DNA from: a virus
IMG/VR virus record: IMGVR_UViG_3300025789_000038
Location: 1 to 62,743 of that record
DNA length: 62,743 nucleotides
Direction: 5' to 3' (one strand)
Shown here: piece after piece, positions 3,878-42,300 of the stretch
Layout of the letters: every line of letters begins with the position of its first letter
Position numbering within the stretch: position 1 is the first letter of the stretch
Translations under genes and position numbers: made by a program
Notes under the pieces: generated by a model
What the model was told of the DNA's origin: nothing
What the model saw: only the letters and a program-made list of their open reading frames with translations
Database searches by the model: none

Positions 3878-3943
3878 ATTAGGTGGGTTTATTCCCTTAC
3901 TCGTGTGCTTATGTGTTGGGGGGTTGGGTGTTTACCGATTAGA

Positions 3944-3975: not shown

Positions 3976-3993
3976 TAAAAACATATAAATATT

Positions 3994-4269: not shown

Positions 4270-4270
4270 G

Positions 4271-4302: not shown

Positions 4303-4319
4303 ACGCACATTTGTAGCAC

Positions 4320-4688
4320 ATGGCAAAAAGTAAACCTACGGGAATAAGATTTAGTGAAAGAGCGGCTTTTGCAAAAGAAAAGTTAGGAATAACGGGTAAT
4401 CAAAAATTAGTAGATTACTTCGTAGATAACTTTTGGTTTTCACACAACCCTATTCCTTTGGGAGAAATAAACCCCATAAAAGAAATTTCAGTTGCCAAAA
4501 AGGCAGAAGAAAAAAGAGCAGAGCCTAAAGTAGAGTTGGGTAGTGATGATTTAATTTGGGAAAAGATTGACGAAATAGAAAATGAGAAACGCCCCTCACA
4601 CATAACTGCAACTTGGGCAATAGATATTTATAAAAAAGGCAAAGCGAAAAGAATTTCAGATTTAAAAAAACAATTAAAACAAAAGTAA
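4320..4688 (+). CDS. Hypothetical early protein, possibly ribbon-helix-helix
   Basis: A 122-residue basic protein. The N-terminus (KPTGIRFSERAAFAKEKLG then NQKLVDYFVDNF) has the strand-helix-helix pattern of ribbon-helix-helix DNA-binding proteins; the rest is a charged helical tail rich in E and K. It has its own consensus promoter. A DNA-binding role is inference from pattern only. Confidence 0.65.
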   Translation: MAKSKPTGIRFSERAAFAKEKLGITGNQKLVDYFVDNFWFSHNPIPLGEINPIKEISVAKKAEEKRAEPKVELGSDDLIWEKIDEIENEKRPSHITATWAIDIYKKGKAKRISDLKKQLKQK

Positions 4689-4689
4689 A

Positions 4690-4854
4690 ATGACAAGTCT
4701 ATTTTTTTGTGGTGCAATAATTCCCCTTTTTATAATTCTACTTTTAACATTGGAGATTTCATTTGACTATCTACCAAAAGCAGGGTTATTAGTACTTTAT
4801 TACAATTGGAAGGGGAAACGTTACTCTATTATTTTAATTGATAATTTATTCTAA
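4690..4854 (+). CDS. Small membrane protein
   Basis: A 54-residue frame, one base after the preceding stop. Residues 4-22 form one hydrophobic helix (LFFCGAIIPLFIILLLTL) followed by a short basic, aromatic tail. It fits between its neighbours with no waste, which supports a real gene. A role in the host envelope (for example superinfection exclusion) is possible but unsupported. Confidence 0.5.
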   Translation: MTSLFFCGAIIPLFIILLLTLEISFDYLPKAGLLVLYYNWKGKRYSIILIDNLF

Positions 4855-4855
4855 A

Positions 4856-5047
4856 ATGATTGAAGAAGAAGTTTGGGAACATAACATTACTACTTTGTTA
4901 CATCACCCCCGTTACAAAAGAATAAGTAAACTTGTATCATCTAATAATGATTGGGTAAGACTTAATTATAAGGGGCAAGAACACTTCCTAAAGCCTACTG
5001 ATAGTTGGGATGATATTGTTTCTGTTTGTGATAAAATGTTGAAGTGA
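4856..5047 (+). CDS. Hypothetical protein
   Basis: A 63-residue protein, unrecognised. I chose the ATG at 4856, just after the upstream stop, over an in-frame TTG at 4838 lying inside the previous gene. It is basic in the middle (HPRYKRISKLVSS) and ends in an amphipathic helix. It precedes a tandem terminator. Confidence 0.6.
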   Translation: MIEEEVWEHNITTLLHHPRYKRISKLVSSNNDWVRLNYKGQEHFLKPTDSWDDIVSVCDKMLK

Positions 5048-10607: not shown

Positions 10608-10979
10608 TTATTTCTGAAAGTCCCTTAAAATATTCAATAGTGATTTAGTAAATTTAAAGTCATTATCCAATTTACTAGATAAAGCCAATAAGTCCCCCAT
10701 AAGAAAACCTTTCATTTTTAAAGTATTAATAACGTGCTTTTCTTCTTTAGGTCTTTCTTGTTCTTTTTGATGGCATGGATTACATAATGTAATAAGCATA
10801 TCGTTTGGATAGTCCCACGGTTCTATGTCGGGGATATAATCTAAATGATGAACTTCTAAAGAAGCGTTTTCGGGTGACTTACAATAATGGCTTTGGCATT
10901 TAAACTTATCCCTTGATAATATTTCTGTTTTTTTAATCTGCCATCGCTTGTCACGAAGTTTTTCTTGGTATGTAGGCAT
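10608..10979 (-). CDS. HNH endonuclease
   Basis: A 123-residue HNH nuclease. The beta-beta-alpha metal site reads LEVHHLDYIP (H44, H45), N60 in YPND, and CNPCHQKE (C66, C69, H70); with the early pair C28 and C33 this also forms a structural zinc site. Its position in the replication operon, rather than beside the terminase, suggests a homing or selfish endonuclease, although a role in DNA processing is possible. Confidence 0.85.
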   Translation of the reverse strand: MPTYQEKLRDKRWQIKKTEILSRDKFKCQSHYCKSPENASLEVHHLDYIPDIEPWDYPNDMLITLCNPCHQKEQERPKEEKHVINTLKMKGFLMGDLLALSSKLDNDFKFTKSLLNILRDFQK

Positions 10980-24412: not shown

Positions 24413-27400
24413 ATGGCAACATCAATAAGACAAGATACTAACCCATTAGAAGAATGGGCTGAAAGAAAAAAAGAATCGGTAGCGGAAACGAAACCTATTA
24501 AAAAGTCTATTGTTAAAAGTCAAGATAAATCACAGCCAACAGTTAGTGAAGAAAACCCACTTGAAGATTATTTTAAAAAAAAAGATGGTACTACAAACTA
24601 TACAAGTGGGTCAGAAGTTTCAAATTTACAAAGCAATCAACCCCCTACGGATGGTCAATCACAATTACCTACGAGCGAACCTAAGCTAAGTTTTGACCAA
24701 AACAAACAAAAGTCAATAAAGACAGTTGAAGAAAACTTAGGCGGTATTTCTGAATATTTTAAAAAACAAGGGTCTTACGATAAAGACTTTCAGCCTTTTT
24801 TACAAGGGATAAAATCAGGCAACCCCGAAACATTAAAAAAGGCTTGTGATATTATAAATACAGAACTTTCAAATAAAATAGATGAATTAAGTAAACCACA
24901 AGAAAGTTATGCAGGTTTAGCTAGTATGGGTGGTGGATTAGCAGGATTAGGTACTCCCGAAGTTAGGAATGAAATATCATCAGAATCAAAATCACAAATA
25001 GAAAAACTAAAGAAGGCTAAAATAGAAAACTATAACAGCCTACTTAGATATGCAGCAGGTAATCCAAAAGATGCAACAGGGAAATACTTGTCACCCAAAA
25101 ATATAGGCGATAGGCTTAATGCAGCAGGATTTGGCGTTTCTAAAGACCAACTTGAATTAGAAGCAAAAGCAGATAAATCAAAGACAAATTGGGCAACAAT
25201 AGCAAAACAGCATACCGATTTTAGAAAAGAAACTTTAGGGTATCAGACAATATTGGATGATTTACAAAGCCGTTATGATGATGCTAAAAAGATATATGAA
25301 GATAATCAAACAGAAGAAAATCTAAAAAAGGTTAATGGGATAGCAGATGAATTAAATAATACAAAATCTAACTATAATAATTTAGATTTAAAATACCCCG
25401 AAGTTGCAAAGAAAAATTTAGCTTCGTTGATTTCAGATAATGTTTCTACCAATAGAAGTAGGGCTGATTTTAATTTCTTTAAACCTTCAATAGAAGAAAT
25501 TAAACAAGGATTTGAGGATATTCGTAAAGAATCCCCCGAAACGGCAGCTAAATACCAACAAGTATTTAATAGTATTATACAAGACAAGCAATTTGTAGAT
25601 GTGATGGGCGGTTCTACTCCTAGTAGTTATGGGCAACCAATAGTACAAGGGGGATTGGGCGGTGCTTTTTCAAGGGGATTGGATGATGTTGTTAATTTAT
25701 GGGGAGTTGGTGACATTTTAACAATGAAACCAGAAGATATAGCGGCAGAAAAATTGGCTACATCTTATTCCCCACAAAAGACCTCTTATCAAAAAGGTTC
25801 TGACGAAGGTAGGATAGTGGTAGACAAAGAAGGTAATACATTAGTTAAGAAGCAAAATAATCTATCTAATACTTGGGACAATATTGTTAATCTAGTAGGT
25901 GAACAAGCCCCTACACTTATTGCATTTGGGGGTATAGAAAGTGCTGCAAGTAAGACAATAGGCAAAGGGGTTGTAGGTACACTAAAAGGTGCAACGGGAT
26001 TAGCAGGTGAATTTGTAGAGGGGGCAGCAGGAATAGAAGGTGGTACTGCAAGGGAAACGACAAGAAATGCCTTTAAATTTGCGAAGGGTGGAATTGCCGA
26101 AGGTTTACAACACGCAATAGGGACACAAGCGGGTATTTTTGCTACTTCTTATGGTAAAAATTATGATGAAAGTATAGATAAATTCCCCGACACCCCCGAA
26201 GGGCATAATCAAGCACACGCAGCAGCAGCATTAAAAACATTCGCAGAGGGGACAGCATTTTCTTTAATGGGGATAAGTCCTTCTAAATTAATTGGGGGGA
26301 CTATTGAAAAAAGTATAAATGCAGATATTGATAAGTTTATAACAGAGAATGATTTTAGCAAGATAGGTAAAGAAGAATTTGCGGCAAAATTCGCAGATAT
26401 GTATGCCCCTAAGATAGAAAAGCTAGTTTCTTCTACTGTTAAAGAATCTCTTAAAATGGGCGGTATCGGCAATGTCAATGAGTATATAAAAGGCAAGATA
26501 GACCAATATTTGACAGGTAAACAACCCGAAGAAAGCACTAATGATGAAGAATTTAAGAAGCAAGTAGACATTTTTAAAAGTGGGGCTTTGATGGGGGCTG
26601 TATTTTCAGCGTTGCCTAATATGTTAAACTTTGCAACAAATGGCAAAGAATACGCACCTAGCCACACGGAAACACTAATGCACCTTTCCCAAAACCCCGA
26701 AGAAAGCAAATGGAGAGCGCAGCAGCTTTTTGAAAATGGCACAATAACAGATGCTAGGAGAAATGAATTTATTAAAACAATAAATACATCTGTAAATTCA
26801 TTAAACGATGCTATTGAATTTGCAAGGGGAGAAGGGAAAGACTTTAACGACTTAAAGACCCAATCCCAACAAAAACTATTGGCTAATCAATTTAGACAAA
26901 GGTACTTTAAGGATATGGCTGATAATAACCCTGACTTAAAAGAAAAGGCTATTGAAGAACAAGAAAGATTAAGAAAAGAAGCGTTAGGACTTTTGGAAGA
27001 TAAAGAAGCAATGCCTATTAGTGATGCCTTTGTTAAGGGATTAGATATTAAGATGGTTGTGCCTAAAACAGACGAAAGTAATGGGGGTGAAGTTAAATTA
27101 GGCAGCATAAACGAAATAGGGCAAAACACAGACAAAACTTTTATTATTGATGGTAAAGAAGTAAATGCAGAAGAAGCCCACCAACACATTTTAGATAAAG
27201 CAACAGAATTAGTTGATGCCCCACGCATAACAGAAACAGAACAAGAAATATTAAAAGGATACGAAAAAAGGATTAAAGAGGGGGAAACTTTGCCTGCCAA
27301 GTCCCAAAAAGAATACGAATCCCTTTCTAAGAAAAAAGAACTTTACGACAAACAACAATCATTCATTAATCAAACAGAAGATGAGAAAAGCAAAAGTGCC

Positions 27401-30400
27401 GAACCCCAAACAACCGAAACTACACAAGCCAAAAGTGAAGATACCGAAGGTACGCAAACCGAAGATTTAAAGTTCCCCAAAAGGAATGATGATTTTGCTT
27501 TCAAGTACTTTAGTGACGAAGAAAAAAATAAATATGCACAACTAGAAAAAGATGGAGATACCGAAGGTATTTCTAAAATGATTGAAGATAAAAAAGCAGA
27601 GTTAATAAGACAATCAGAACATAAGGTTACACCTACGATAGTAGTTGATGGAAAAGAATATTACGGTGCTAATCACGGGGAAGCAATGGAAGCTGCTATT
27701 GCAGACGGGAAAGATATACCTAGTCCAGATACAGAAGAAGGAGAAGCGTGGAGAACTGAACACGGACAATTTAAAACAGCAGACGGGGATTTATTAACTA
27801 GAGAGCAAGCTGAAAATGACCCTAATTATGGGTTTAATCAATCAAAGGATATTCCTCCCATTCAATTATTAGTCCCTACATTAGAACCTGTTACTAAAAC
27901 AGAACAATCCCCTATTGACAACGAACCTTTAAAAGAAGGTGATATATTGGCAGATGGTCGTGAAGTATTAGGCGTAAATGAAGAAAAAGGGCTAATCACA
28001 TTAAGAAAAGATATTGGTGAAGGTAATTTTGAAACACAAACTATCCCACTTAAAGAAGCTACCGATATTGGTAGAAAAACAAAAACAACAACAGATGAAA
28101 GCATCAGCAAAGAAAGAGGTAAAGAAGGTCGCCAAAAAGGCGGTAGAAAAGAAGGTCGCCAAGAAAGCGATAAAAAAGGCAATGTAATTGGTGGGGACGG
28201 TACATCATCTAGTGAAGGTGGTGTACCTCCTACTAATCCTCCTACAAGTAAAGAAAATACCCCCGAAGAAAATAGACAAGTTTGGATAGGGATACAAAAA
28301 GCTATGTTAGGGGACACCGTATTAAAAGTAATGGGAACTTTAGATAGTGTTACAAATAAAGAAACCATACAAAAGGCTATTGATATGCTTTCTGATATGG
28401 CTTCTAATGGCAGTAAGACTATTATTGATGCAGCAAAAGATTATACTGACAAATGGCATGATATATTATTCAAAAAGACATCTAAAGGCGACCCAATATT
28501 AGATAGTCAAGGCAGACCCGAAATTAATAGAGGTGTTGGTATTCCCACTGAATTATTAGGGGCTATGGGTGTTAGACAGGCTTATTTGGCAGATATGCTT
28601 AATAATACTACCGACCTAGAAGAACAAGGTAAAATTGCAGTAGAGATGCAAAGGGTTGACGAAGTTTTAAGGGTAGCACAAAATGAGTTGGGACGTAACT
28701 TTCAGTTTTTACAATCACTATTCAAGTTGGGTAGCGATGGTGAAATATTGTATAGGAGAAATGTTTTATCCAAAGCTATTGACGAAGAAATCCCCGATAA
28801 TAAAGAAGCATTAGATAAGCGTATCGGCGAATTAAAAGAAGGGGATAAGGAAGATATAGAAAAGGCTAAAATGCTAAAAGAAGCCTATGATGAATTAGAA
28901 AAATTAAAGAACAAAACAAAGGCAGCCGAAGAATCTACTCAAAAAGAAGTTGATAGGATTACAAAAGAAGATTTTGACAAGGCTATTGCCGAAGCAGAAA
29001 AAAGAGGTCGTGAACAAGCCGCAGCCGAAAAGAAAAAAGGCAAAACCCCTCAATCTGAAATATTAAAGAAAACAGGGAAAGATTGGGCAAACAAAATTCG
29101 TTCATTAAAGATAGATAATAATAATACTTTAAGTGCAGATATAACATTAGGATTAGGCAGACCAACTTGGAATCTATTAGTAGAATCTGTTGCAAAATTA
29201 GTAGAAGCAGGTAGTGAAATAGGTGCAGCTATATCTAAGGTTTTAGAAGATAAAGAATTTTCTTCATTGAAGAAAGAAGATGTAGAAAAGTCATTAATAG
29301 GGGGTGTTGATGCTAAAACTAAAGAACAAATTGATGCTAACAGGCGAAATGCAAAAGAGTATAAGGCACTTGAAACAGAACGTAACAGGCAAATAAGGGT
29401 TTATAATGACTTAAAAGAAAAGTTAGCTAAATTAGTAGATACAGGCAAAAAAGAGGTAAAAGAGAAAGGTGAAACAAAAAAAGACACGCCCGAAATAGAA
29501 GATTTAAAAAGTAGGATAGAGCAAGTAAAAAAAGATATTTCCGAAAGAGATGCGCACGAAAAGAAAATGCAAGGGCTACAAGATGAATTAACCCGTTTGC
29601 AAAACAGAACCCCAAAAGAGAAAAAAGAAGCAGGAGATAAAGTAGTTAGTGCAGAAGAACAAAAGCTAAAGGATGCTATTGATTTAGAAAGGAAACAATG
29701 GGCTTTAGAAAAGTCGGCTGAAAATAGGATTAAAAATGCCGAAACTGAATTAAAAAGGGTACAGGATAGGATTGAAAACCCAAAAACAGAACCTTCTGAA
29801 AAGAAATATCTTACTGAAAGGGAAGCTGAATTGGCTAAAGAAATTGAAAAAGAAAAGAAAGATTGGGCGCACGAAAAGAAAATGCAAGGGCTACAAGATG
29901 AATTGACCCGTTTGCAAAATAGAACCCCAAAAGAAAAAAAAGAAGCAGGAGATAAAGTAGTTAGTGCAGAAGAACAAAAGCTAAAGGATGCTATTGATTT
30001 AGAAAGGAAACAATGGGCTTTAGAAAAGTCGGCTGAAAATAGGATTAAAAATGCCGAAACTGAATTAAAAAGGGTACAGGATAGGATTGAAAACCCAAAA
30101 ACAGAACCTTCTGAAAATAAATATCTTACTGAAAGGGAAGCTGAATTGGCTAAAGAAATTGAAAAAGAAAAGAAAGATTGGGCGCACGAAAAGAAAATGC
30201 AAGAGCTTGAAAGTAAGTTGGATGATATTAAAAACAGGCGTGAAAAAGCAGAAACCCAAAAAGAAAAGCAAGTTATTAGTGCAGAGGAACAAGCTAAACG
30301 TGATGAAATAGATGAGGCTCAAAAAGAATGGGATAAAGAAAAAAGGGTAGAACGTTTACAAGAAAAACTAGAAAAGGTAAAGCAGCGTATTGTTGAAGAA

Positions 30401-33400
30401 AAATCCCCTACTGAAAAGAAGAAACTTAGTGAAGAAGAAAAGTCTTTATTGCAACAGATAAAAGACGAAAATGCAATTTGGGCAACAGAAAACAAATATG
30501 ATACACATCAAAAATTAGAAGACATATCAAGTGTAGCCAAAGAACAAGGGGTTACTACATTATCCCCTAAAATAGTTGAAGATGGATTAGTTCAAAATCT
30601 TATGGATTCTTATTTAGGGAAAGGCTTAAATAGTTCAGAAATTTTAGAAAGTGCTTTGTCTGACTTAAAAAAAGTATTACCAGATGTAAGCGAAAGACAG
30701 CTATTAGATGCTTTTCTTCGTAAAGGGGATTTTGAACAAAAAACAAAAGAACAAGCTAACAAAGAATTAAAGCAACAAAAAGATGATTTAAGGCAGACCG
30801 CTAATTTGCAATTAGAGAATGATATGATTGCAAAAGGGGAGGAAATATTGAAGGACAAGAGTAAAAAAGATGAAATTAGCGGTTCTGTTGTAAAGATGCT
30901 AAAAGATAAAAAAGCAATGCTTTTACAACAAAAGAGAAATGCAGAAGTTGACCAACAAGTATCAGATATAAACAACCATTTAAAGACTTGGGAAAAGATA
31001 TTAAAAAGCGTTCAATACGAAGGGAACGTATTAGCCAAAATGAAAGCAGATAATAGAGCTAAGATTGACGAAGCCCTTATTAAGAATGGGATTAAGTTAG
31101 ATAGAAGTAGCCAAGATGTTATTCAAAAGAATAGAACTATTGCTAATACTCATAACAATAAGGTTGATGAATTATTGTCTAATCCTAACTTGACAAACGA
31201 GCAAATCAGACTATTAAAAGGGCTTAAAATAAAAGACGTAAATAATGTAGAGGAGTTAGGTGAAAAAATAGACAAGGCAGCTAGAAGTATTCAAACACAA
31301 ATAAATTTAGCTAACCCAACAGACCCGATTTCAAAAGAATTAAAGTCTTTGAAAAATGATTTATTGGAAGGTTTAAGTAAGAGGGACGAGTTTACTAAAC
31401 TTGAAGCAGCAAAACAAAAAATGAGAGGGGATATTAATAGAATGACTAGAGATATTGCAGGCAATAGATTTGCTGATTCAAAAAGTCCTACACAATTAAA
31501 AATAGATAGAGAGTATATTAAGCTACAACACGAAAGAAATATGCTTCGTGCAGAATATGACAAAGCAGAAGAAAAGTTCATATATCAAAATAAGAATAAC
31601 ATAGGGAAAGGGTTGGATTTATTTTTAAGGGCAAGGCGTGGTAATTTGATTTCTTCATTAAGTTCTACTGTATTCAAATTGCCGTTAAGTTCTTTTGTTA
31701 AAATAGGGGGGGATATTCTTTCTACTAATATATCAGGATTGTCTCCTTTAACGGGGGGGATTAGTTATTTAACAGGATTAGAAAAGGCAGTAAGCGCACA
31801 AAAAATATCTTGGAAAGCAGACTATGAAGGGTTGAAAACAACAGCAGGGTTAAGCCTATCAAATGTAAGAGTTGACGAAGCTATTTTGAAAGAAACAAAA
31901 GAGCAAATGGCTAATACTAAAAAGATATTAACAGACCAAAAGCAAGTTTTATTAGATAGAAACAAGGAATTAAAAAAATCTGATGACGAGAAAAGTATTG
32001 ATGAGATTTCAGATAATGAATCTAAAATAAAAGAGTTAGATAGACAGATAGAAAAAAACTCAAACAAGGTTCGTGATATGAAAGTGGAAACACTTTTAAA
32101 AAGTACGGACGAATTATTAAAGTCAACAGCAGATAATTTTTTTAAAGTAAAGGCTGAATTAGAAAAAAATGGAGTTGACTTAAATAAAAGTAAAGAATAT
32201 AAGGTAGCTAAAAAGGCTTTTGATGATGCGGAATACAATAGTGGGCTAGCTTTTATGTATCAATTTATTGGTCACGTTTGGAAGAATAGGGGTGAACAAA
32301 TAATGGAAGGGGCGTACTCTTTTGAAGAGGCTATGGGCGACTTTAAAAGAATGTCTTATGAAGATAGAATGGCTATACATTCTACTAAGTTTGGCAAAGG
32401 AGTAGAAACATTAATATACGGGGTTGATACAATAGGAAGGATACACGCAGCTACTAAAGATATTTCAGCAATGAAGCAGTTTGTTACTGAATACGCAAAA
32501 GCATTAGAAAGGGCAAGTAGGAAAATGGATGCAGGTCAACGTTTGCAAGAGAGTGACAAGTATATCATTATGCAAAAGGCTTTTGAACACGGGTTCAAGG
32601 GGGGTAAGTTTTCAGAAAAAAACGCTACTGTTAGATTTGTTCAAGATGCTTTTAAAAATATAGATAGGTCAATAGAAGAAAAAATGTTGAAGCGTGGTGG
32701 TACTAAAGACTTAAATTACAAGGCTTCAAGATTTGGTAGTGGGGTTGCACAATCTATATTGTTACCCGTTCTTAAAATACCTGCTAATATTGAAAATTCA
32801 GGGTTGTTTAAATATACATTAGGATACGGATTAGCTTTAAAAAGGATAGGTTCAGAAGCGATACGTGCTTCAAAAAATATGGACTATTCGGCACAACAAA
32901 GCATTACCGAAAATATAAAAAGGTTTGGTGAAGCATTTACTAAGCACATGAGTGAATTAGACCCTGACTATGCAGATAAAATAAAAGAAGGATTAAATAA
33001 GGGGCAAGTTGGCTTAGTTACTATGGGGATTGCTGCACACATGATAGCAACGGGGGCTTTAGCTTTTGGAGGCGTTTATTATCCGGGGGCAAGAAAGAAA
33101 AAAGATGCTTATGGTAATGAATTGAATTTTGGTGCTATATCATTAAATGGTAAAGTTTTCGACAACTATACTACTGCTATTTTAGGTCACTTAGATATAA
33201 TGATGCCTTTCTTTATGGCAGCAAATTACATGACTGCAAAAGAAAATCAAGAAAGAATAAATCTTAATGAAGAAAACAGGGGGTTAGAGAAATACACTAA
33301 GAACCCCGAAGCGGTTGGGCTTGCAAATGACATTTTCATGGCAATAGAAGAAAGCCCCGTAAGAAATGTATTATCTTTGGCAGGCACACCCGAAAATGTA

Positions 33401-33565
33401 TATCAAGGTAGTAGTGGAGTAATGGAAAGTTTCTTTTCAGTTGGGATTGCAAAAAGTATAGGAAAAGGTATAGATGACTACAACGGCGACCAAAGAGATA
33501 TTCAAGATTGGAAAGATAGGCTTATGGTAAATAATGGATTAAATTTCTTAGTAAATAAAAAATAA
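24413..33565 (+). CDS. Giant internal virion / large polyvalent-type protein
   Basis: A 3050-residue protein, the largest gene here. Residues 1-110 are disordered and hold two copies of an NPLExxxxKK motif. Residues 500-620 carry hydrophobic, glycine-rich segments. Residues 870-1290 are acidic, ending in a K/G/R-rich stretch. Residues 1600-2060 form a long coiled coil with a 105-residue tandem duplication. Residues 2405-2480 (ARRGNLISSLSSTVFKL) resemble domains found in phage large polyvalent proteins. Near residue 2867 there is a membrane-like helix (GLVTMGIAAHMIATGALAFG). I saw no DxDGD motif, which argues against a virion RNA polymerase. It is probably packaged in the head and ejected with DNA. 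Confidence 0.65.
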   Translation: MATSIRQDTNPLEEWAERKKESVAETKPIKKSIVKSQDKSQPTVSEENPLEDYFKKKDGTTNYTSGSEVSNLQSNQPPTDGQSQLPTSEPKLSFDQNKQKSIKTVEENLGGISEYFKKQGSYDKDFQPFLQGIKSGNPETLKKACDIINTELSNKIDELSKPQESYAGLASMGGGLAGLGTPEVRNEISSESKSQIEKLKKAKIENYNSLLRYAAGNPKDATGKYLSPKNIGDRLNAAGFGVSKDQLELEAKADKSKTNWATIAKQHTDFRKETLGYQTILDDLQSRYDDAKKIYEDNQTEENLKKVNGIADELNNTKSNYNNLDLKYPEVAKKNLASLISDNVSTNRSRADFNFFKPSIEEIKQGFEDIRKESPETAAKYQQVFNSIIQDKQFVDVMGGSTPSSYGQPIVQGGLGGAFSRGLDDVVNLWGVGDILTMKPEDIAAEKLATSYSPQKTSYQKGSDEGRIVVDKEGNTLVKKQNNLSNTWDNIVNLVGEQAPTLIAFGGIESAASKTIGKGVVGTLKGATGLAGEFVEGAAGIEGGTARETTRNAFKFAKGGIAEGLQHAIGTQAGIFATSYGKNYDESIDKFPDTPEGHNQAHAAAALKTFAEGTAFSLMGISPSKLIGGTIEKSINADIDKFITENDFSKIGKEEFAAKFADMYAPKIEKLVSSTVKESLKMGGIGNVNEYIKGKIDQYLTGKQPEESTNDEEFKKQVDIFKSGALMGAVFSALPNMLNFATNGKEYAPSHTETLMHLSQNPEESKWRAQQLFENGTITDARRNEFIKTINTSVNSLNDAIEFARGEGKDFNDLKTQSQQKLLANQFRQRYFKDMADNNPDLKEKAIEEQERLRKEALGLLEDKEAMPISDAFVKGLDIKMVVPKTDESNGGEVKLGSINEIGQNTDKTFIIDGKEVNAEEAHQHILDKATELVDAPRITETEQEILKGYEKRIKEGETLPAKSQKEYESLSKKKELYDKQQSFINQTEDEKSKSAEPQTTETTQAKSEDTEGTQTEDLKFPKRNDDFAFKYFSDEEKNKYAQLEKDGDTEGISKMIEDKKAELIRQSEHKVTPTIVVDGKEYYGANHGEAMEAAIADGKDIPSPDTEEGEAWRTEHGQFKTADGDLLTREQAENDPNYGFNQSKDIPPIQLLVPTLEPVTKTEQSPIDNEPLKEGDILADGREVLGVNEEKGLITLRKDIGEGNFETQTIPLKEATDIGRKTKTTTDESISKERGKEGRQKGGRKEGRQESDKKGNVIGGDGTSSSEGGVPPTNPPTSKENTPEENRQVWIGIQKAMLGDTVLKVMGTLDSVTNKETIQKAIDMLSDMASNGSKTIIDAAKDYTDKWHDILFKKTSKGDPILDSQGRPEINRGVGIPTELLGAMGVRQAYLADMLNNTTDLEEQGKIAVEMQRVDEVLRVAQNELGRNFQFLQSLFKLGSDGEILYRRNVLSKAIDEEIPDNKEALDKRIGELKEGDKEDIEKAKMLKEAYDELEKLKNKTKAAEESTQKEVDRITKEDFDKAIAEAEKRGREQAAAEKKKGKTPQSEILKKTGKDWANKIRSLKIDNNNTLSADITLGLGRPTWNLLVESVAKLVEAGSEIGAAISKVLEDKEFSSLKKEDVEKSLIGGVDAKTKEQIDANRRNAKEYKALETERNRQIRVYNDLKEKLAKLVDTGKKEVKEKGETKKDTPEIEDLKSRIEQVKKDISERDAHEKKMQGLQDELTRLQNRTPKEKKEAGDKVVSAEEQKLKDAIDLERKQWALEKSAENRIKNAETELKRVQDRIENPKTEPSEKKYLTEREAELAKEIEKEKKDWAHEKKMQGLQDELTRLQNRTPKEKKEAGDKVVSAEEQKLKDAIDLERKQWALEKSAENRIKNAETELKRVQDRIENPKTEPSENKYLTEREAELAKEIEKEKKDWAHEKKMQELESKLDDIKNRREKAETQKEKQVISAEEQAKRDEIDEAQKEWDKEKRVERLQEKLEKVKQRIVEEKSPTEKKKLSEEEKSLLQQIKDENAIWATENKYDTHQKLEDISSVAKEQGVTTLSPKIVEDGLVQNLMDSYLGKGLNSSEILESALSDLKKVLPDVSERQLLDAFLRKGDFEQKTKEQANKELKQQKDDLRQTANLQLENDMIAKGEEILKDKSKKDEISGSVVKMLKDKKAMLLQQKRNAEVDQQVSDINNHLKTWEKILKSVQYEGNVLAKMKADNRAKIDEALIKNGIKLDRSSQDVIQKNRTIANTHNNKVDELLSNPNLTNEQIRLLKGLKIKDVNNVEELGEKIDKAARSIQTQINLANPTDPISKELKSLKNDLLEGLSKRDEFTKLEAAKQKMRGDINRMTRDIAGNRFADSKSPTQLKIDREYIKLQHERNMLRAEYDKAEEKFIYQNKNNIGKGLDLFLRARRGNLISSLSSTVFKLPLSSFVKIGGDILSTNISGLSPLTGGISYLTGLEKAVSAQKISWKADYEGLKTTAGLSLSNVRVDEAILKETKEQMANTKKILTDQKQVLLDRNKELKKSDDEKSIDEISDNESKIKELDRQIEKNSNKVRDMKVETLLKSTDELLKSTADNFFKVKAELEKNGVDLNKSKEYKVAKKAFDDAEYNSGLAFMYQFIGHVWKNRGEQIMEGAYSFEEAMGDFKRMSYEDRMAIHSTKFGKGVETLIYGVDTIGRIHAATKDISAMKQFVTEYAKALERASRKMDAGQRLQESDKYIIMQKAFEHGFKGGKFSEKNATVRFVQDAFKNIDRSIEEKMLKRGGTKDLNYKASRFGSGVAQSILLPVLKIPANIENSGLFKYTLGYGLALKRIGSEAIRASKNMDYSAQQSITENIKRFGEAFTKHMSELDPDYADKIKEGLNKGQVGLVTMGIAAHMIATGALAFGGVYYPGARKKKDAYGNELNFGAISLNGKVFDNYTTAILGHLDIMMPFFMAANYMTAKENQERINLNEENRGLEKYTKNPEAVGLANDIFMAIEESPVRNVLSLAGTPENVYQGSSGVMESFFSVGIAKSIGKGIDDYNGDQRDIQDWKDRLMVNNGLNFLVNKK
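29552..30181 (+). repeat. Two tandem 315-base repeats inside the giant gene
   Basis: Copies 29552-29866 and 29867-30181 are nearly identical (a few silent and one K-to-N change). A third copy begins at 30182 but diverges after 22 bases. Each unit is 105 codons, so the frame is kept. Confidence 0.92.
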
Positions 33566-33571
33566 ACAATT

Positions 33572-33709
33572 ATGCCATTAAAGAAATCATCAAGTAAGAA
33601 AGCATTTTCTGAAAATGTAAGGAAGGAAGTTAAAGCAGGGAAACCCCAAAAGCAAGCAGTAGCAATAGCTTATAGTGTTCAAAGAAAAGCAAAAGGTAAA
33701 AAGAAATAA
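33572..33709 (+). CDS. Small DUF6496-like phage protein
   Basis: A 45-residue lysine-rich peptide (SKKAFSENVRKEVKAGKPQ, then KQAVAIAYSVQRKAKGKKK). The pattern KAFSxNVxxEVKAGKPQKQAVAIAYS is common in small phage proteins (DUF6496 as I recall). Function unknown; the strong positive charge suggests DNA or capsid binding. It sits between the giant virion gene and the gene at 33711. Confidence 0.72.
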   Translation: MPLKKSSSKKAFSENVRKEVKAGKPQKQAVAIAYSVQRKAKGKKK

Positions 33710-33710
33710 A

Positions 33711-34019
33711 ATGTCATTAAAAATAGAAGTTATAAAACAATTTAAGGCTAGTTACAATATTGATATAGTTCCTTTTGATGGGAAAATATATGGATACTTT
33801 ACCACTAGAAAAATGGTTGGATTGGGCGGGACTTCTTTTAATAAATTCGGTTATCATTGGGTTGAATTACTAAGTGATGAAGATAATGTAAAAGAAGTAA
33901 AGAGGCATTTACCACATTCCCGTATTTGTAAGATGTACGATGCAAAACTAAGGAAAGATATTTACAAGGAAGTTGAACGAGTTAATAATGAACTGTTTAA
34001 AACAAGCGAATGTCATTAG
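33711..34019 (+). CDS. Hypothetical protein
   Basis: A 102-residue protein, unrecognised. I chose the ATG at 33711, one base after the previous stop; the in-frame codon at 33675 lies inside the upstream gene. It is beta-rich first (KIEVIKQFKASYNIDIVPFDGKIYGYF), with a C-terminal helix (RKDIYKEVERVNNELF). The next start, at 34010, lies inside its end. Confidence 0.65.
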   Translation: MSLKIEVIKQFKASYNIDIVPFDGKIYGYFTTRKMVGLGGTSFNKFGYHWVELLSDEDNVKEVKRHLPHSRICKMYDAKLRKDIYKEVERVNNELFKTSECH

Positions 34020-34054
34020 AGATACATATAAAGGAAATACCACACGAAAAGTAA
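34010..34054 (+). pseudogene. Interrupted 5' end of the HELIEE-family gene
   Basis: An ATG overlaps the previous stop and opens a 14-codon frame, SLEIHIKEIPHE then K and stop. The last ten of these codons resemble FILIKVIPHE encoded at 34694-34723, just before the rest of a conserved phage protein. Removal of 675 bases (34049-34723) would join the two in frame. This looks like the original start of that gene, cut off by the HNH insertion. Confidence 0.65.
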
Positions 34055-34723
34055 TACAAAATGAGCATAATAAAACAATGTACAGTTTGCAATAAAGACT
34101 ATGAAGTCAAACTAAAAGAACGATACGAATCTTCAAAGTATTGCTCTAGGACTTGCATGGGTAACGGACAAAAAGGTAGGCTTAATCCACATTCAGAAGA
34201 ATGGGAGGCGAAGAGAATTATTGCAATACAAGAGGCTTCAAAGAATAGGATTTATCCTAAAGGTTACAAAAGAGTTAAAGAACATTATGAGCCAATGCTA
34301 GAAGCGGTTAAGAAAGCAAGAGAAAAAGACCCTGATATATTTAGAGAAAGAAGTATAAAAAACTTACCAAAAGATGTATCTGGCGAAAAAAATGGCAATT
34401 TTAGAGATTGGGCTACAAAAAAAAGTAATAACTTTAGGGTTCAGAACAGCTCAAACTTTAAAAAGTGGAGAAATTTAGTAATGGAAAAGAGTGGGCATAA
34501 ATGTGTTTTATGTGGATGCGGTGGGAAGTTGGACGCACATCATATAATATCGTTGTCGGAATCGGTAACTCCTGCATTTGAAGTATGGAATGGAGTTGCC
34601 TTATGTAGAAGTTGTCATGTAAAAACAGATAGCTTTGGAAGTAAAGGAGTATTGAAAAGTATAAAAAAACAAAGCGAAAAAAAGGAAGGTTTGTTTATTT
34701 TAATCAAAGTAATACCACATGAA
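34049..34723 (+). mobile_element. Candidate HNH mobile insertion with target-like duplication
   Basis: The DNA ending ATACCACACGAA at 34048 resembles ATACCACATGAA at 34723. The 675 bases after the first copy, up to and including the second, hold an HNH endonuclease frame and are a multiple of three. This suggests a homing-type insertion that supplied a new 5' part for the interrupted gene. An intron is less likely because the insert is almost wholly coding. Confidence 0.55.
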
Positions 34724-35071
34724 TTTCAAGAATACAATACGGTGGGAAATTATAAATCTATGGGAGACGAAACGTTTATATTAGTATCAGAACAAGGAGA
34801 TGAATTTTACAATAAATTAATAGCAATACACGAGTTAATAGAAGAAGCGTTAACGAAAAGACGTGGACTATCGGAAAGTGAAATATTAGACTTCGATTTA
34901 TATTTTGAAAAAAGACGAGAACAAGGCTTAGTAGAAAAAGATGCAGAAGCGGGTTTTTGTAGCGAAGCACCTTACCTAGCAGAACATACATTCGCCACTT
35001 CGGTAGAAATGCAAATGTGCGCATTAGCAAAAGTTTCTTGGAATGATTATATGAATAACGAACATAAATAA
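34061..35071 (+). CDS. HNH endonuclease fused to a HELIEE-motif phage protein
   Basis: A 336-residue frame with two parts. Residues 1-205 are an HNH homing-type nuclease: N-terminal zinc finger (CTVC, CSRTC), a DNA-binding middle rich in K/R, and the HNH core HKCVLCGCGGKLDAHHIISLS (near 146-166) with ALCRSCH (near 180). Residues 210-336 match a common phage protein: ILIKVIPHEFQEYNTVGNY, LIAIHELIEEALTKRRG (near 253) and YLAEHTFATSVEMQMC. This second protein usually stands alone. It could still be made separately from the TTG at 34691. Its original start seems to survive at 34010. The HELIEE motif hints at a metal site. Confidence 0.8.
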   Translation: MSIIKQCTVCNKDYEVKLKERYESSKYCSRTCMGNGQKGRLNPHSEEWEAKRIIAIQEASKNRIYPKGYKRVKEHYEPMLEAVKKAREKDPDIFRERSIKNLPKDVSGEKNGNFRDWATKKSNNFRVQNSSNFKKWRNLVMEKSGHKCVLCGCGGKLDAHHIISLSESVTPAFEVWNGVALCRSCHVKTDSFGSKGVLKSIKKQSEKKEGLFILIKVIPHEFQEYNTVGNYKSMGDETFILVSEQGDEFYNKLIAIHELIEEALTKRRGLSESEILDFDLYFEKRREQGLVEKDAEAGFCSEAPYLAEHTFATSVEMQMCALAKVSWNDYMNNEHK

Positions 35072-35078
35072 AGCAATA

Positions 35079-36341
35079 ATGACAAACCTAAAGGATAAGA
35101 CAGTTTTGGTGTACGATTTTGGCAATTTTATAGAAGTAGCCCAAAGGTTAAGTCGTGACTTTGGCAGGGTTCTTTATTTTATGCCAACTGTAATAAACGG
35201 GTGGGTGGAACACAATCCCTATGATATAGGTAGGGGAGTTGAAGGTATAGAACGTATCTATGATATTTGGGATTACTATGAAGAAGTTGATTTATGGGTA
35301 TTCACTCATATTCACGAAGGGGGATTGCAAAACTTCCTAAAAGCACAAGGTAAACGTGTTTTCGGTTCGGCTAAGGCAGGTTTATTAGAAACAGATAGAC
35401 TTGGGTTCAAGCAACTATTAAAACAGCTAGAATTACCCGTAAATGGATATGATACGGCTAAGGGGGTTAATGAGTTAGAGGAAAAGTTATCTAAAGTAGA
35501 ACATAAGTATATAAAATCTAGTTTGCGTGGAGACATGGAAACTTGGGAACACAAAAATTCAGTTACTTCTAAAATAGAAATAAACGATTTAAAGCACAAT
35601 TTAGGCATATTCGATACCGAAGAAGTTTATATAATCGAAGATGCAATAGAAGCTGTTGGAGAAATAGGTTGTGACCCGTATGTGGTAAATGGCAAGTTTG
35701 TGGATAATACTTGTACGGGGGTAGAGGTTAAAGATGCTGCTTATGTAGGTAGGATTATGAGTTTAAAAGATTTGCCAAAACAAGTTACAGAAGTAAATAA
35801 GAAATTTGCACCCGTTTTAGAATCTTATGGGTATTGTGGGGCTTTTAGTACTGAAATAAGAGTAGATAAAAAAGGGGTTGGTTATTTTATTGACCCGACA
35901 ATGCGTTTCCCCGAACCTAATACTGCTTTGACATTAGAAATGTACGATAACTATTCTGAAATAATTTGGATGATTGGTGGTGGGGAAATTCCAACAGTAG
36001 AGGCATCTGAAAAGTGGGGTGTTCAACTTATTATAAAATCAGAATCAGCAAAAAAACTTCCCGTTGCAGTTCAATTCCCTAAAAAGTATGCTAAATTTAT
36101 AAAGATAAAAAACCTTGTCGTGGATGATGAAGGTACACATTGGTTTACGCCAAACGGTGAAGGGATGATTGAGATTGGGGCAGTAGTAGCAACAGGTAAA
36201 ACATTGAAAGAAGCAAAAGAAAAGGCTACCGAAATAGCTAAATCGGTTGTAGGTTTTGATATTAAAATAAAGTACGAAGCACTAGACGAAGCGCAATCGG
36301 TAATTGACAATTTGACTAAAAACGGTATTAAGTTTATATGA
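35079..36341 (+). CDS. PurD-like ATP-grasp enzyme
   Basis: A 420-residue protein resembling phosphoribosylamine-glycine ligase and other ATP-grasp enzymes. The N-terminal part (TVLVYDFGNFIEVAQRLSRDFGRVLYF) is a Rossmann-like preATP-grasp domain. The ATP-grasp core holds KRVFGSAKAGLLETDRLGFK, KYIKSS, VYIIEDAIEAVGEIGCDPYV and GYFIDPTMRFPEPNTALT; the last parallels the metal-binding NxRFGDPE of PurD. The C-terminus (VVATGKTLKEAKEKATEIAKSV) parallels the PurD C domain. Such enzymes join a carboxylate to an amine using ATP. Substrate unknown: purine synthesis, nucleobase or protein modification are options. It sits 3 bases before the terminase genes in sense of operon overlap (next start overlaps its stop). 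Confidence 0.75.
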   Translation: MTNLKDKTVLVYDFGNFIEVAQRLSRDFGRVLYFMPTVINGWVEHNPYDIGRGVEGIERIYDIWDYYEEVDLWVFTHIHEGGLQNFLKAQGKRVFGSAKAGLLETDRLGFKQLLKQLELPVNGYDTAKGVNELEEKLSKVEHKYIKSSLRGDMETWEHKNSVTSKIEINDLKHNLGIFDTEEVYIIEDAIEAVGEIGCDPYVVNGKFVDNTCTGVEVKDAAYVGRIMSLKDLPKQVTEVNKKFAPVLESYGYCGAFSTEIRVDKKGVGYFIDPTMRFPEPNTALTLEMYDNYSEIIWMIGGGEIPTVEASEKWGVQLIIKSESAKKLPVAVQFPKKYAKFIKIKNLVVDDEGTHWFTPNGEGMIEIGAVVATGKTLKEAKEKATEIAKSVVGFDIKIKYEALDEAQSVIDNLTKNGIKFI

Positions 36342-36985
36342 TAAACAATTATAGTGAAATTATATCTTACAATGAGGGGTATGATTACTTCGAGCAATTT
36401 CTTAGAAATAGGTATTTGTGGGAAATATTTAAACCGTTATCAGAAGATTTCCCCGTTGCAGAAGTTTTTGTAGGGGTAGTTAAGTTTATCTTATACGGGT
36501 TTTCTTTGGAAAGTGAAATGCTTAATACAGGGGGGATTTCTTGGGATAACTTAGCTAGGAGGATATTTACAAAAGTAGGATTGCCCGAAGTATATTATGA
36601 TGAAGTTGCAAAGCTAAGAAATGATAATTTAAGGCTAAGTATTGATAGGTGGATTAAGTTACAGAATGATGATAACTTTGCCCAATATGTTGCATACAGG
36701 GGGTTAAGGTCACAATTCCTTTCAATAATGTCTTTGCCCGAACCTAAGATTAAAAATGATGATGGCACTACCGATTTGGATGCTTATGCTAAGATAAAAT
36801 CAATAGTAGATGGCAAAATGGCAGCAGCAGAAAACGCAAGGGAATTAATGAATATGATGAATGAAGCTAAGTCGTCTTTTATTCAAAACCACGCAAAACT
36901 AAAAGTAAGTGTTGGGGCTGCAAACGAAATGTCAATGCAAAAAAACACGGCTTCGATAGAGGACTTTATAAATAGTAAGAGATAA
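36338..36985 (+). CDS. Putative terminase small subunit
   Basis: A 215-residue protein whose start overlaps the ATP-grasp stop and whose stop overlaps the TerL start. It has an N-terminal helical part (YDYFEQFLRNRYLWEIF), a middle with RWIKLQNDDNFAQYVAYRGLRSQFL and a long C-terminal helix (DGKMAAAENARELMNMMNEAKSSF). The position directly before TerL supports a small-subunit role, but no helix-turn-helix is obvious, so the call rests on context. Confidence 0.5.
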   Translation: MINNYSEIISYNEGYDYFEQFLRNRYLWEIFKPLSEDFPVAEVFVGVVKFILYGFSLESEMLNTGGISWDNLARRIFTKVGLPEVYYDEVAKLRNDNLRLSIDRWIKLQNDDNFAQYVAYRGLRSQFLSIMSLPEPKIKNDDGTTDLDAYAKIKSIVDGKMAAAENARELMNMMNEAKSSFIQNHAKLKVSVGAANEMSMQKNTASIEDFINSKR

Positions 36986-39321
36986 TGTTAAAAAAGGGGG
37001 TTACATATAATATTCAGCGTAGAATAGGGGAACACGATTATACCAAACCCCCATTGCCTAAAAACACGGATGAAATACTATGGTACAATGAAAAGCCCGA
37101 AAACGCCTATTGGAGAAGATTAGAGTTACCTAGTGTTTTTTATAATTTCGTTCCTAACTATACAGAACTAGATGCAGATGCTACACTACAAGATGAAAGT
37201 GGGCTTTATAAGTCTTTTAATTCAGCAGATAGCCAACTATTCATAGAAACAGTATCGAAAGAATTATATAGGCGTGAACACGGGGTTTTCTTCCGTAACA
37301 AAAATGAAATAGAGTACATTACGGGGCATCATTACTTCACTATGCAGCATTGCCGTTGTTATGGTAAAAGTGCTAGGTATGAAAAGTATGTGTCCACATT
37401 TGGGGATAGTGTGCCAAAAGATTATTTTCTTAGGGTTTATGCAGAATATGGTTATTTCTATAAATACCAACAAGATATTTTCTATTTGATAGACTTGGTT
37501 AATAAGGATGAAAATATACTTGGTGCTTTCATTTCTAAGGCTAAAAAAACAGGGGTTACTTTCCTTTTTTCTTGTTACCTACTAAACAAAACAACCCTTT
37601 ACAAAGGGCAACAAGTAGGTGTAATGAGTATGAGTAAAGATGTTGCCATAACAAGTAACATGATGTACTTTTATCATGCTTTTGATGGATTGCCAAACAT
37701 ATTCAAACCCTCTACTAAAACAGATGCAAGAAGTGAAGGTCATACAATATTTGGGGCAAAATCATTTAGTGGTACTTCTTCACATAAGTCGGCATTAAAC
37801 ACAATGATGCAAGAAAAGGCACTTAATTCAAGAATATTCGTAGCCCCAACCGACCCGAAAGGATTTGATAGCCCTAAAATGACAGACGTTGTTTTAGATG
37901 AGTTTAATAAAACCCTTGCCAAAAGTAACCAACACCCAAAAGAAATATTTGAAACAAACAATGCCACCGTTAAGATGCAAAATGACATCGAAGGCAAAAT
38001 GTGGTTATTTGGATACGTTTCAGAACAAAATGACGTGGGGGTTACAGAAGCAAGGGATATTTTCTTTGGCAGTAAATTACACACAAAAAGAGGCAGTAAA
38101 AGAACCCTTAGTGAATTGATATGCTACCACGTTTCTTCTCTTTATTCATTCCTTAGTTTGATTGATAAGTACGGGGAATGTGACGAAGTGGCGGCGAATG
38201 ACAGTATCGAGGAAGCCTTAGAAAAAGTTAAGACCGACCCTAAAAGATACCTTTCAGTAAAAAGGCAGTTAGCCCGTACTGAAAAAGAGGCTTGGGAAAT
38301 AGGTGGAGAAAGTTCTACATTCAATCCCCTACCAATAATAGCCCAAATAGATAGTGAATTAGAAGATAATGCAAACGGGGTACACGGGATGATACCTGCA
38401 CGTTTGATATGGGATAATGCCGCTTGGGAAATGGGTAAAAAAGACAAACGCCCCAAAGGTAAGTTTACTAAAGTAAGATGTATTCCCCTTTCAGAAGAAG
38501 ATGTACAAAATGGGTTTGAACCCGAATTTTGGATAGATAAGGAAGAATTTTATAGAGGCACTTTCAACGAAAGTTTATTAAGGGGGTACGATACAAACGG
38601 TTCTTTATTGCCCCCAAAAAGATTTAACAACGTAGGCGGTGCAGATACCGTTAAATGGGCAGAAGCAATAAACGAAGGTTCTAAATGTGCTTATGGGACT
38701 ATGAGTATTTACGACCCAATTAGGGATAGTCGTGAAAGAAAGATAGCATCTAAGCGTTTGATTTCAGTTTACTTTGCACGTCCCGACAACCCCCGTGAAT
38801 CTTACGAACAATTAGTAAAGGAAACAATATTCTTTTCTAAGATTAGTATAGTAGAAGCAAACGAACCCACTTATGCAAATATGATGTTGCAAGAGGGGTT
38901 AGGTTACTATATGATATTTAAGGATATGAAAGCCCCTACATTTACCCTTATAACATACGAACCGTGGATGCAATTAGGGGCTGATTTTAACTTTATAGTA
39001 AGGACAAGAAACGCCCACCAAAACGTACTATTAGAAACAATAATAAGAAGTGCTAAAGACTACCTTTATGTAGGTAAAGATGAACCTAATTATGTAGAAA
39101 CAATACACTTTATTCCATTACTTAGACAGTTCTTGGATTTTGACCCCGAAATGACAAAACCTTCGGATTTGGTAATGATGTTTGGGTATTTAGTATTGGC
39201 GCACGATATTTATATGGCTACCATTTTGGGGCGACAAAACTATGTGGAAGATAGTCAGTTTTTCGGTAATTTCTTATGTGCTTTAAATGGTAAATATTCA
39301 AAACCCAATAAAGCCGCATAA
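36985..39321 (+). CDS. terL: Terminase large subunit
   Basis: A 778-residue packaging motor. The ATPase part shows YEKYQQ-type adenine-region sequence (YFYKYQQDIFYLI), a degenerate Walker A SKAKKTGVT near 185, and Walker B VVLDEF near 302. The C-terminal nuclease part has SVYFARPDNPRESYEQLVKETIFFS, ISIVEANEP and a later aspartate-containing FDPEMTKPSD, in line with an RNase H fold. It is longer than most TerL proteins (450-650) owing to an N-terminal extension, as seen in crAss-like and related Bacteroidota phages. It cuts and pumps DNA through the portal encoded at 44661. Confidence 0.8.
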   Translation: MLKKGVTYNIQRRIGEHDYTKPPLPKNTDEILWYNEKPENAYWRRLELPSVFYNFVPNYTELDADATLQDESGLYKSFNSADSQLFIETVSKELYRREHGVFFRNKNEIEYITGHHYFTMQHCRCYGKSARYEKYVSTFGDSVPKDYFLRVYAEYGYFYKYQQDIFYLIDLVNKDENILGAFISKAKKTGVTFLFSCYLLNKTTLYKGQQVGVMSMSKDVAITSNMMYFYHAFDGLPNIFKPSTKTDARSEGHTIFGAKSFSGTSSHKSALNTMMQEKALNSRIFVAPTDPKGFDSPKMTDVVLDEFNKTLAKSNQHPKEIFETNNATVKMQNDIEGKMWLFGYVSEQNDVGVTEARDIFFGSKLHTKRGSKRTLSELICYHVSSLYSFLSLIDKYGECDEVAANDSIEEALEKVKTDPKRYLSVKRQLARTEKEAWEIGGESSTFNPLPIIAQIDSELEDNANGVHGMIPARLIWDNAAWEMGKKDKRPKGKFTKVRCIPLSEEDVQNGFEPEFWIDKEEFYRGTFNESLLRGYDTNGSLLPPKRFNNVGGADTVKWAEAINEGSKCAYGTMSIYDPIRDSRERKIASKRLISVYFARPDNPRESYEQLVKETIFFSKISIVEANEPTYANMMLQEGLGYYMIFKDMKAPTFTLITYEPWMQLGADFNFIVRTRNAHQNVLLETIIRSAKDYLYVGKDEPNYVETIHFIPLLRQFLDFDPEMTKPSDLVMMFGYLVLAHDIYMATILGRQNYVEDSQFFGNFLCALNGKYSKPNKAA

Positions 39322-39338
39322 ATCATTAATTTTGCCGT

Positions 39339-42300
39339 ATGCAACATACAAATAAACTTATCCCCTTAAAAGTAAACGCAGACCTTAGTGCCGCTTACTT
39401 TGATGCTTATACGGCTCGTTATCTAAAAAATGTTACTTCATACGAAAGTGCTACTAATGAGTACGGCGATATAAAAGAGGGAAACAATGCAGCATCATTA
39501 AAGAAGTTGCAAAGCAACGAATTGTATGTGCCTTTCGCTTTGCCAAGTGGAGATAATTATTGCATAGGTGCTAAAGGATTTGCAGTTACAAATGAAGTTT
39601 ATTGTTTTATATACAACAGTAACGGCAATCATTCAATTTATAGAGTAAGTGCAAGCAATAGAACGGCTGATTTAGTTTATCAAAATGCTTGTTTAAATTT
39701 TCAACTACAACCACAATACTTCATTGCTTCAATAGTTTTATTACCCATTAAATTAACAGACCCCGACACGGGAATAACCGTTATAAAAAGAGATTTGTAT
39801 TGGGCTGATGGCTTTAATGATGCAGGGTATCTAAGGGTAGATGATGCAATAGGCTCACAAGGTTTTAATAGTACAATCTATCCTTATTTTAATGGGAATT
39901 ATGACCCTTGCTCTTTGATTAGGATGGGATTTGAAACCCCTGACAAAGAAATACAAATAGCAGAAATACCCGTTACGAGTGCAGATGTAGGCATACCCAA
40001 TAATGTATTGTATCAAGGATTTCAATTTAGGATAAGGAACACAAACGTATTTGGCGTACCGTCCGAACACGGCATTATAAGTGATTTATATTTTAGTGGG
40101 GTAAATGATTGCATGGTATCAAGCAGTACATCCCCCCGTTGCCTATCATTGACCTTTGATGCGGGTAATCCATTTAACAATTCAATAGATGTAGAGTATA
40201 GGATAGGGAATAGCGACCAATGGTATAAAGACACTACACTATTTCTTTATCAAGGGAGTACAGTTGGTAGTTGGTGGACTAGAAGCAGAAATTCAAATGT
40301 AACATACAATGCTTCTACTAATCAAATAACATATACTTTTTGTAATAACGGCGAACAAACCCCCGTTTCCCAAGACGAAACAAATAGGACAGAAAACCCT
40401 ATACCTAAGTCGCCACAAGTATTATTTGAATTAAATCAAAAATTGGCTTTAGCAAACTTTAAACAAGGCTTTTCACCTTTAAGCAGCAATATACTCAATA
40501 ATTGTAAACTTACATTATCCGAAACCCCCGTTACTGTTACAGCAACTAGGACTATAACCATATTGGTAGCAATAATAAATGAAGTTACGGGCAATGTAAA
40601 CGGGGTTTTTAAAAACGGCACACGAGGTTATGTATGGGGCGACCCCAATGAAGCACTAGCATATAAGCAGTATTTTACCAATATCTATCAAAGTGGGTTT
40701 ATAGGGTACTTGAATGATGGCAGCGTAGCTATAAGTGAACAAGTTTATTGGAATGGTGGCAGTTATTCTTTAGACGAAACTTTTGCCAATCAGAATATAG
40801 TATTCCAACGGTTTACATTTACGGGGGTATCAGCAGGGGTTAAAGTTTTTAGGCTTGCGTCGCACTTATACGACCCGACAAGTGGGACTGATTTCCAATC
40901 CACAAGCACAACCGTAAGGGGGGTGTATCAAATAAATAATAATTATTTAAATATAGGTCAATACCCTTTTTTGACAGCCCCACAGAATGATTATGGTAGT
41001 GGCATATTGACTAAAGAATTAGTTATAGATGTAAGTAACGGGGATTATACTACATTTAATGATACTAAAATGATGGTTATTGCCGACTTTGCGGCAAATA
41101 GTGATTTATTAAGGGTTATTAGTGGGTATGTTTATGAAACATCGCAAAACGGATTCCCCCAAAGCCCTATGGAGTTAATAAGGCTAACAAACGGTCACGG
41201 GGCGACATCGGTTATTACAGACCATAATGGGTTTTATTGGTTTAGGTCGCAACAGGCAGGGTCTGTTTCTTGTGGGTTTAATTTTTATTATAATTGCGTT
41301 CAAGTTGCCGTAAGTTCATCTCTACAAGGGCACGGAATGACAACATCAGACATTACTATCAATACAAAGGATAAGGCTTACGAGCAAATGTTTGATTTAC
41401 CATGCAATAGGGCTATAATACAAGGTAAGATTATATTGAACAATAGCAATGGCGAAGGAATACCAAATGTACCAATAGTATTAACTAGAGGTGGACACAC
41501 TACAAGTAATGATGATGGGACATTCTCATTAGTGTGCCACGATGATGCTCAAAATGGTGGAGTAAGAATAGATGAATTAATTATAAGCGGTGGTTCTTGT
41601 GCTTTTACGGGGATAAATGGAACGACTATACCAACCATACCTATTACTATAAATGCTTGTACGGGCGGTTGTACCGAAAGGGTTTATGATATAGGTACTG
41701 TTTACTTGGAATACAAATCCTTCAAATCATTGCTTACGGGGGGAAAATATGCGTATGCGTTAATCCCTAAAGATGGGTTACGGGCGGGGTATGCTCAACC
41801 CATTGGCGTTTTGCAAGTCCCTTCTATTCCACAATCACAAGCGATAAACGCATATCAAACTAATTTACAGATAACAAATAATCCTACATTCCCTTTGGAT
41901 ATAACGGAGTGTACGGTAGCTGTTAGTAAAGAATTGTCATTATCTGATTATGTCACTTGGATAGTAGATAAAGTTGATTTTGTTGATAATACGGGTGCTG
42001 TAAACATTTATTCCCCTTCTCAAATTAGGATATGGTATGCTAGTTTAAATAAATTCAATGCCAATAATAATTACAATACAACTTGTAATTGGCAATTTAT
42101 ACCACAAGGGCAATCAACCCCAACAGTAGGGGACAAGGTATCATTTATATTAAATGGGGATAATTCATTTTTTAGTAAGAATATTTCAGCAGTAGTAAAA
42201 TATGATACAACGGGGCAATATTTTTTGATAGACTACAATAGCGAATTAAAAGGGTTGTTAGCAAATGCTATTATAAGGATTACTAGACCTAATGCAATAA

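Follow-up and report, generated by a model that had tools for sequence, protein, structure and literature searches.

Homing nucleases that belong to neither an intron nor an intein usually lie beside genes or split them. The locus analyzed here raises the question of how an HNH endonuclease came to be read in one frame with a conserved phage gene, directly behind a 14-codon scrap that resembles the start of that gene. The window, i.e., the whole stretch of DNA that was analyzed, covers a virus record of 62,743 bases, a contig that was derived from a metagenome and read a single time. An earlier interpretation made from the letters (the sequence-only reading) had held that the HNH interrupts a conserved gene, that removing 675 bases would restore this gene in frame, and that an internal TTG at 34691 may still start the old protein. 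The conserved gene is called HELIEE, a name given here after a motif in the protein family. The features on which the argument draws are as follows (positions in the window, strand).

33711..34019, + strand: upstream gene, L003-type backbone (DNA identical to the related record L003 from 33715 to 34033)
34010..34054, + strand: stub, MSLEIHIKEIPHEK followed by a stop codon, what remains of the 5' end of one target gene copy (top profile match in the window, 24.1 bits)
34033..34034, no strand: left boundary of the recombination, falling between stub codons 8 and 9, where the identity with L003 stops
34037..34048, + strand: upstream IPHE codons, ATACCACACGAA
34061..35071, + strand: open reading frame of 336 aa, an HNH endonuclease and a complete HELIEE-family protein fused in frame
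34061..34690, + strand: HNH part (PF13391, E=7.5e-5, above the cut-off; phrog_1271, E=1e-13; phrog_119, E=1.2e-13)
34691..35071, + strand: HELIEE-family gene, complete from TTG 34691 (M-F-I-L-I-K-V-I-P, compared with M-E-I-H-I-K-T-I-P in L011)
34712..34723, + strand: downstream IPHE codons, ATACCACATGAA, exactly 675 bases after ATACCACACGAA
35079..36341, + strand: neighbour gene, a conserved gene present as a diverged allele in the replaced block (44% identical to the L003 copy, 51% to that of L008)
36338..36985, + strand: resumed L003-like backbone, DNA nearly identical to L003, preceding a terminase-like gene

The stub (ATG TCA TTA GAG ATA CAT ATA AAG GAA ATA CCA CAC GAA AAG TAA; 14 codons and a stop), the near-duplicate repeats with their 675-base spacing, and the single open frame that carries the HNH into the conserved protein all lie where the sequence-only reading had placed them. 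The 336-aa frame starts 6 bases past the stop of the stub, and its first two thirds belong to the HNH endonuclease superfamily, the last third being the HELIEE protein: PF13391 scored 23 bits where 21 were required (PF01844 came slightly below its own cut-off), the HH, N and H are in place in a core at residues 148-188 (34502-34624), and the N-terminal portion carries cysteine pairs (C-x2-C / C-x3-C). A second HNH gene of the window, short and free-standing (10608-10979, - strand, 123 aa), also matches phrog_119. For the HELIEE gene, no known family was found in Pfam, PHROGs or PDB sequences. An alignment of viral, bacterial and archaeal loci showed that HExxE and an H further along are invariant in the family. 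A structure search with the HELIEE model returned weak matches only, small zinc metallopeptidases first (best Z 4.8, not significant), and given this weakness a zinc-metallopeptidase function was not assigned.

The fused gene is complete and not a 3' half, since TTG 34691 stands in register with the ATG of L011, the closest intact homologue (55-58% identical), and the first strand of the domain is modelled from there. The AlphaFold2 model of the domain from TTG 34691 had a mean pLDDT of 95.9, with the first strand at residues 2-8, and when the entire fusion was modelled, the HELIEE domain was still of high confidence and this strand was kept (residues 212-218). The TTG singled out by the sequence-only reading does align with the start codons of intact homologues, but what begins there is a complete gene and not the remnant of one. 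The idea of an interrupted gene holds in a similar part: the HNH is linked to a duplicated 5' end and relatives without the HNH exist, but the downstream portion is not a truncated 3' half.

The duplication of the 5' end was examined with an N-terminal profile of the first 11 residues of 46 homologues without an HNH in front, which was scored against all 65,855 11-residue peptides of the window in six frames. The stub (34016) ranked first (24.1 bits), the start of the fused domain (34691) second (21.9) and the next peptide third at 11.3; because the stub and the fused-domain start take ranks 1 and 2, the 5' end of the HELIEE gene is present twice, and these two copies flank the HNH reading frame with its intact HNH motif. 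The stub shares 8 of 13 residues with the fused stretch, and the 8-residue match around residue 209 was reached by one of 20,000 shuffles of the stub. At the protein level, the case for a duplicated gene start is a strong one. By itself, the 12-base repeat is weak evidence of duplication (with one mismatch allowed, 0.51 matches were expected, and two were reached in 6 of 100 shuffles).

The two copies do not look like a fresh duplication, because different codons are used at 5 of the 8 residues common to both. In addition, IPHE is followed by K in the stub, the commonest residue there among the unfused homologues, whereas the fused copy has F, which occurs in none of the 46. Given the synonymous changes and the K vs. 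F difference, the stub and the fused copy look like two different alleles, and the same differences speak against a recent target-site duplication. The 675 bases are the spacing of the two 5' end copies rather than an established length of an inserted unit.

Comparison with related phages that lack the element, which the sequence-only reading had called for, found the HELIEE gene uninterrupted and free of an HNH in L002, L003, L008, L009 and L011. In L002 and L003 the gene is whole (130 aa, MSLEIHIKSVDRSKIRNN...) and at the same position, and the gene preceding it is nearly identical to the upstream gene of the window; a similar HNH was looked for in the records L002, L003, L008 and L009, and none was found. 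By these comparisons, the HNH shows the pattern by which a free-standing homing endonuclease gene is recognized, presence and absence at the same site among close relatives. The end of the upstream gene and the start of the stub overlap, as the TAG of the former lies inside the first codons of the latter (ATGTCATTAG). From 33715 to 34033, i.e., through the eighth codon of the stub, the DNA of the window and that of L003 are identical and then differ, and a separate DNA search ended the identity at the same base. The first 24 bases of the stub are identical to the intact gene of L003, while the remainder belongs to another allele, and the stub, as judged from this alignment, is a mosaic of two alleles.

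The diverged block from 34034 to about 36337 consists of the HNH, the HELIEE gene and the neighbour gene, and the HELIEE and neighbour proteins in it are 39% and 44% identical to those of L003, respectively (no named family was found for the neighbour gene by Pfam/PHROGs domain search). The terminase-like gene behind the resumed backbone (36985-39321) encodes a protein 98% identical to that of L002 and L003. Since the identity with L003 stops at 34033 and resumes at about 36338, the HNH marks the left end of a segment that was exchanged between phages. The claim that removing 675 bases restores the gene has to be revised in view of this comparison: some 1.6 kb of diverged DNA downstream of the HNH came along with it, which argues for block replacement rather than a clean 675-base insertion. 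In L008, the HELIEE protein is L003-like, yet the neighbour protein is closer to that of the window (51%), a mixture which indicates that alleles at the HELIEE locus are shuffled in this group. Further upstream, a large protein differs strongly between the window (3050 aa, 24413-33565) and L003 (1637 aa, 128-5041, in the available stretch), and the small genes after it are nearly identical in the two, pointing to another exchange boundary near 33570.

We consider it probable that a homing-type HNH gene entered by recombination together with its own complete copy of the target gene, replacing a segment of an L003-like phage. In the donor, the HNH gene would have stood directly before, and in frame with, a complete HELIEE copy, and the HNH, this copy and the next gene would then have replaced the homologous segment. 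Phage homing enzymes are known to cut relatives lacking them, and the repair that follows transfers the gene, along with its flank, to the genome that was cut (PMC2988022). At this locus, the predicted nuclease would have cut near the start of a resident HELIEE gene without an HNH, and repair from the donor would have copied the block in, its left edge falling within the first codons of the target and its right edge about 1.3 kb past the target's end. Such edges fit a cut near the resident gene start followed by repair from a donor with HNH and target in one frame. As the left junction fell in its first codons, all that would be left of the resident-type gene start is the 14-codon stub, and this stub may still pass ribosomes coming from the upstream gene on to the start of the HNH. 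Because no stop interrupts the HNH frame ahead of the gene, the HELIEE product would be made as a 336-aa HNH fusion, and a 126-aa protein from TTG 34691 is possibly made too. The nuclease is presumably active and would cut near the gene start in HNH-less phages; alternatively, the HNH may simply have travelled along in an ordinary homologous exchange. When viral contigs and phage records were searched at the protein level with HELIEE, its neighbour and the HNH, neither a donor phage nor an empty version of the window's allele was found.

It is unlikely, by comparison with this recombinational entry, that an element of about 675 bases with first codons of its own entered a single gene after codon 13, in which case its deletion would give back the original gene. 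The in-frame spacing is exactly 675 bases, 13 of 15 bases match to the right of the junction (GAAATACCACACGAA vs. GTAATACCACATGAA) and joining would give a protein that conforms to the IPHxxQxY pattern of the family, but the different codons at the shared residues, the K of the stub against the F of the fused copy, and the different ancestry of the flanks of the left junction speak against it. A degenerate search at the DNA level for HEFQEYNT, the peptide that joining would create, gave one match, inside an unrelated gene and in another frame.

The 44 further viral records with a HELIEE homologue include one more such fusion. L029, a distant phage contig, has HNH and HELIEE in one open frame of 292 codons from a GTG; its HNH is 41% identical to that of the window (E=1.5e-38), the two HNHs are the mutually closest relatives found, and the gene after the fusion reads as a relative of the window's neighbour gene. 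All nine invariant family residues are kept in both fused copies. In L029, the position corresponding to the usual start does not hold a start codon, although a TTG in frame follows four codons later, and no stub was found upstream of the fusion with the N-terminal profile. Long open frames, of up to 267 codons, occur in a few more homologues, and the HNH search found no HNH in these. According to the sequence-only reading, homologues in which the HNH and HELIEE parts are always fused and the stub is absent would have contradicted an interruption; among the homologues examined, L029 alone is fused to a window-type HNH, although it does lack a stub.

The second fusion, with its related HNH, is what would be expected if HNH and HELIEE were one old fusion spreading as a unit, the HNH serving the gene's function and the stub being a mere recombination scar, and an AU test did not reject a single origin of the fusions (p = 0.155). 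We nevertheless hold this to be quite improbable: a tree of 48 HELIEE sequences (200 bootstrap trees) placed the copies apart, the window pairing with the unfused L011 (98/96) and L029, on a long branch, falling in another group (95/84), the two formed one clade in none of the 200 bootstrap trees (log-likelihood difference 23.6), and the window-type HNH stands in the frame of no homologue examined besides these two. Two separate fusion events are favoured by these sequence data, and the similar fusion in a distant phage implies that this class of selfish nuclease may have joined the HELIEE gene more than once. In the same tree, the branches of the fused genes are much longer than those of their nearest unfused relatives (0.9 vs. 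0.24 and 1.78 vs. 0.28), and the genes may have changed faster after fusion. The F after IPHE in both fused copies at first seemed to be a carried, recoded site, but it was given no weight, because arbitrarily chosen homologue pairs often have a single private residue in common.

An intein was ruled out by the stop codon of the stub (TAA, 34052-34054), after which the HNH begins afresh at 34061, and an intron by the missing conserved intron RNA structure at permissive Rfam thresholds: Rfam gave nothing at all on 30000-40000 up to E=1, and on 33900-34900 up to E=10 two chance matches of 13-15 bases were the only ones. Splicing across the site, for which the sequence-only reading had proposed RNA reads, is accordingly not supported. 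Although the matching codons on both sides, the stop soon after the first copy and the frame-keeping spacing would suit RNA splicing or ribosome bypassing that joins the stub to the downstream gene and removes the HNH from the product, this is very improbable, as no intron or other RNA family was found, the HNH has its own ATG and a frame open into the gene, the start region at TTG 34691 is intact, and 675 bases far exceed the 50-base ribosome bypass of T4 gene 60.

Among known systems, the nearest published design appears to be that of mobile endonuclease ORFs in fungal mitochondria, which bring a foreign C-terminal end to their target and leave the native end behind (atp6 of Allomyces; atp6, atp9, cox2 and nad3 of Glomus; PMC3630166). 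There too, a mobile endonuclease carries a foreign end of its target, the native end stays as a remnant and some hybrids are in frame; in the window, correspondingly, a foreign gene end adjoins the endonuclease and a native one remains (two 5' ends, the stub being partly backbone). The fungal elements, however, are LAGLIDADG or GIY-YIG and duplicate the C-terminal end, whereas the window has an HNH in a phage, duplicates the N-terminal end, and its whole downstream gene is a foreign allele; it may be seen as an N-terminal counterpart. The ShiLan element, an HNH endonuclease hidden in a phage DNA methylase (PMC11855218), is likewise an HNH insertion into a phage gene that involves neither an intron nor an intein, is in frame as far as the protein is concerned and has a short repeated peptide at its border, but its HNH lies inside the host gene and out of frame with it, unlike the N-terminal HNH of the window, which shares the frame. 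MobE and MobA are HNH homing genes lodged in conserved genes of T4-type phages (nrdA of Aeh1, gene 60 of T4; PMC2988022), where the gene is split into two working parts and not into a 14-codon scrap and a complete fused gene. ICP1 and other phages provide documented cases of nuclease genes that border exchanged segments (PMC10448857), and the HNH of the window resembles them in standing at the left margin of a block that related phages have exchanged; no HNH fused N-terminally to a protein whose 5' end is duplicated was found among the cases consulted there. A search of the open-licence literature yielded no direct precedent for an HNH joined to the N-terminus of a protein whose gene start is present twice, and within this literature the arrangement would be new, while the element as a whole may be regarded as a variation on known arrangements of homing nucleases and gene ends.

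A more far-reaching proposal, which we put forward tentatively and consider rather doubtful, is that a family of HNH homing genes is specialized for the 5' end of HELIEE. Each member would carry its own cut-resistant gene start, and each arrival would replace the start of the target, leaving an obligate N-terminal fusion in which the upkeep of the selfish gene is tied to that of its target, independently in at least two distant phage lineages. If so, the family would mirror the fungal elements at the N-terminal end. By arriving with a target copy of its own and being read with it as one protein, a nuclease would have a further way of inhabiting a conserved gene without a splicing device. The main interest lies in the recurrence: two distant phages each have the HELIEE gene in frame with a nuclease of one class, and these two examples with one target make it a testable question whether fusion guards the selfish gene against loss.

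The neighbour gene of the closest HELIEE relative (L011:3405-5732) contains an apparent intein, from about CFSSDTEVLTDKGW... to ...KPFWSGN before CRMPQPP, and is uninterrupted in the window and in L003. With this apparent intein in L011 and the HNH in the window, the two-gene HELIEE locus seems to attract two kinds of homing element.
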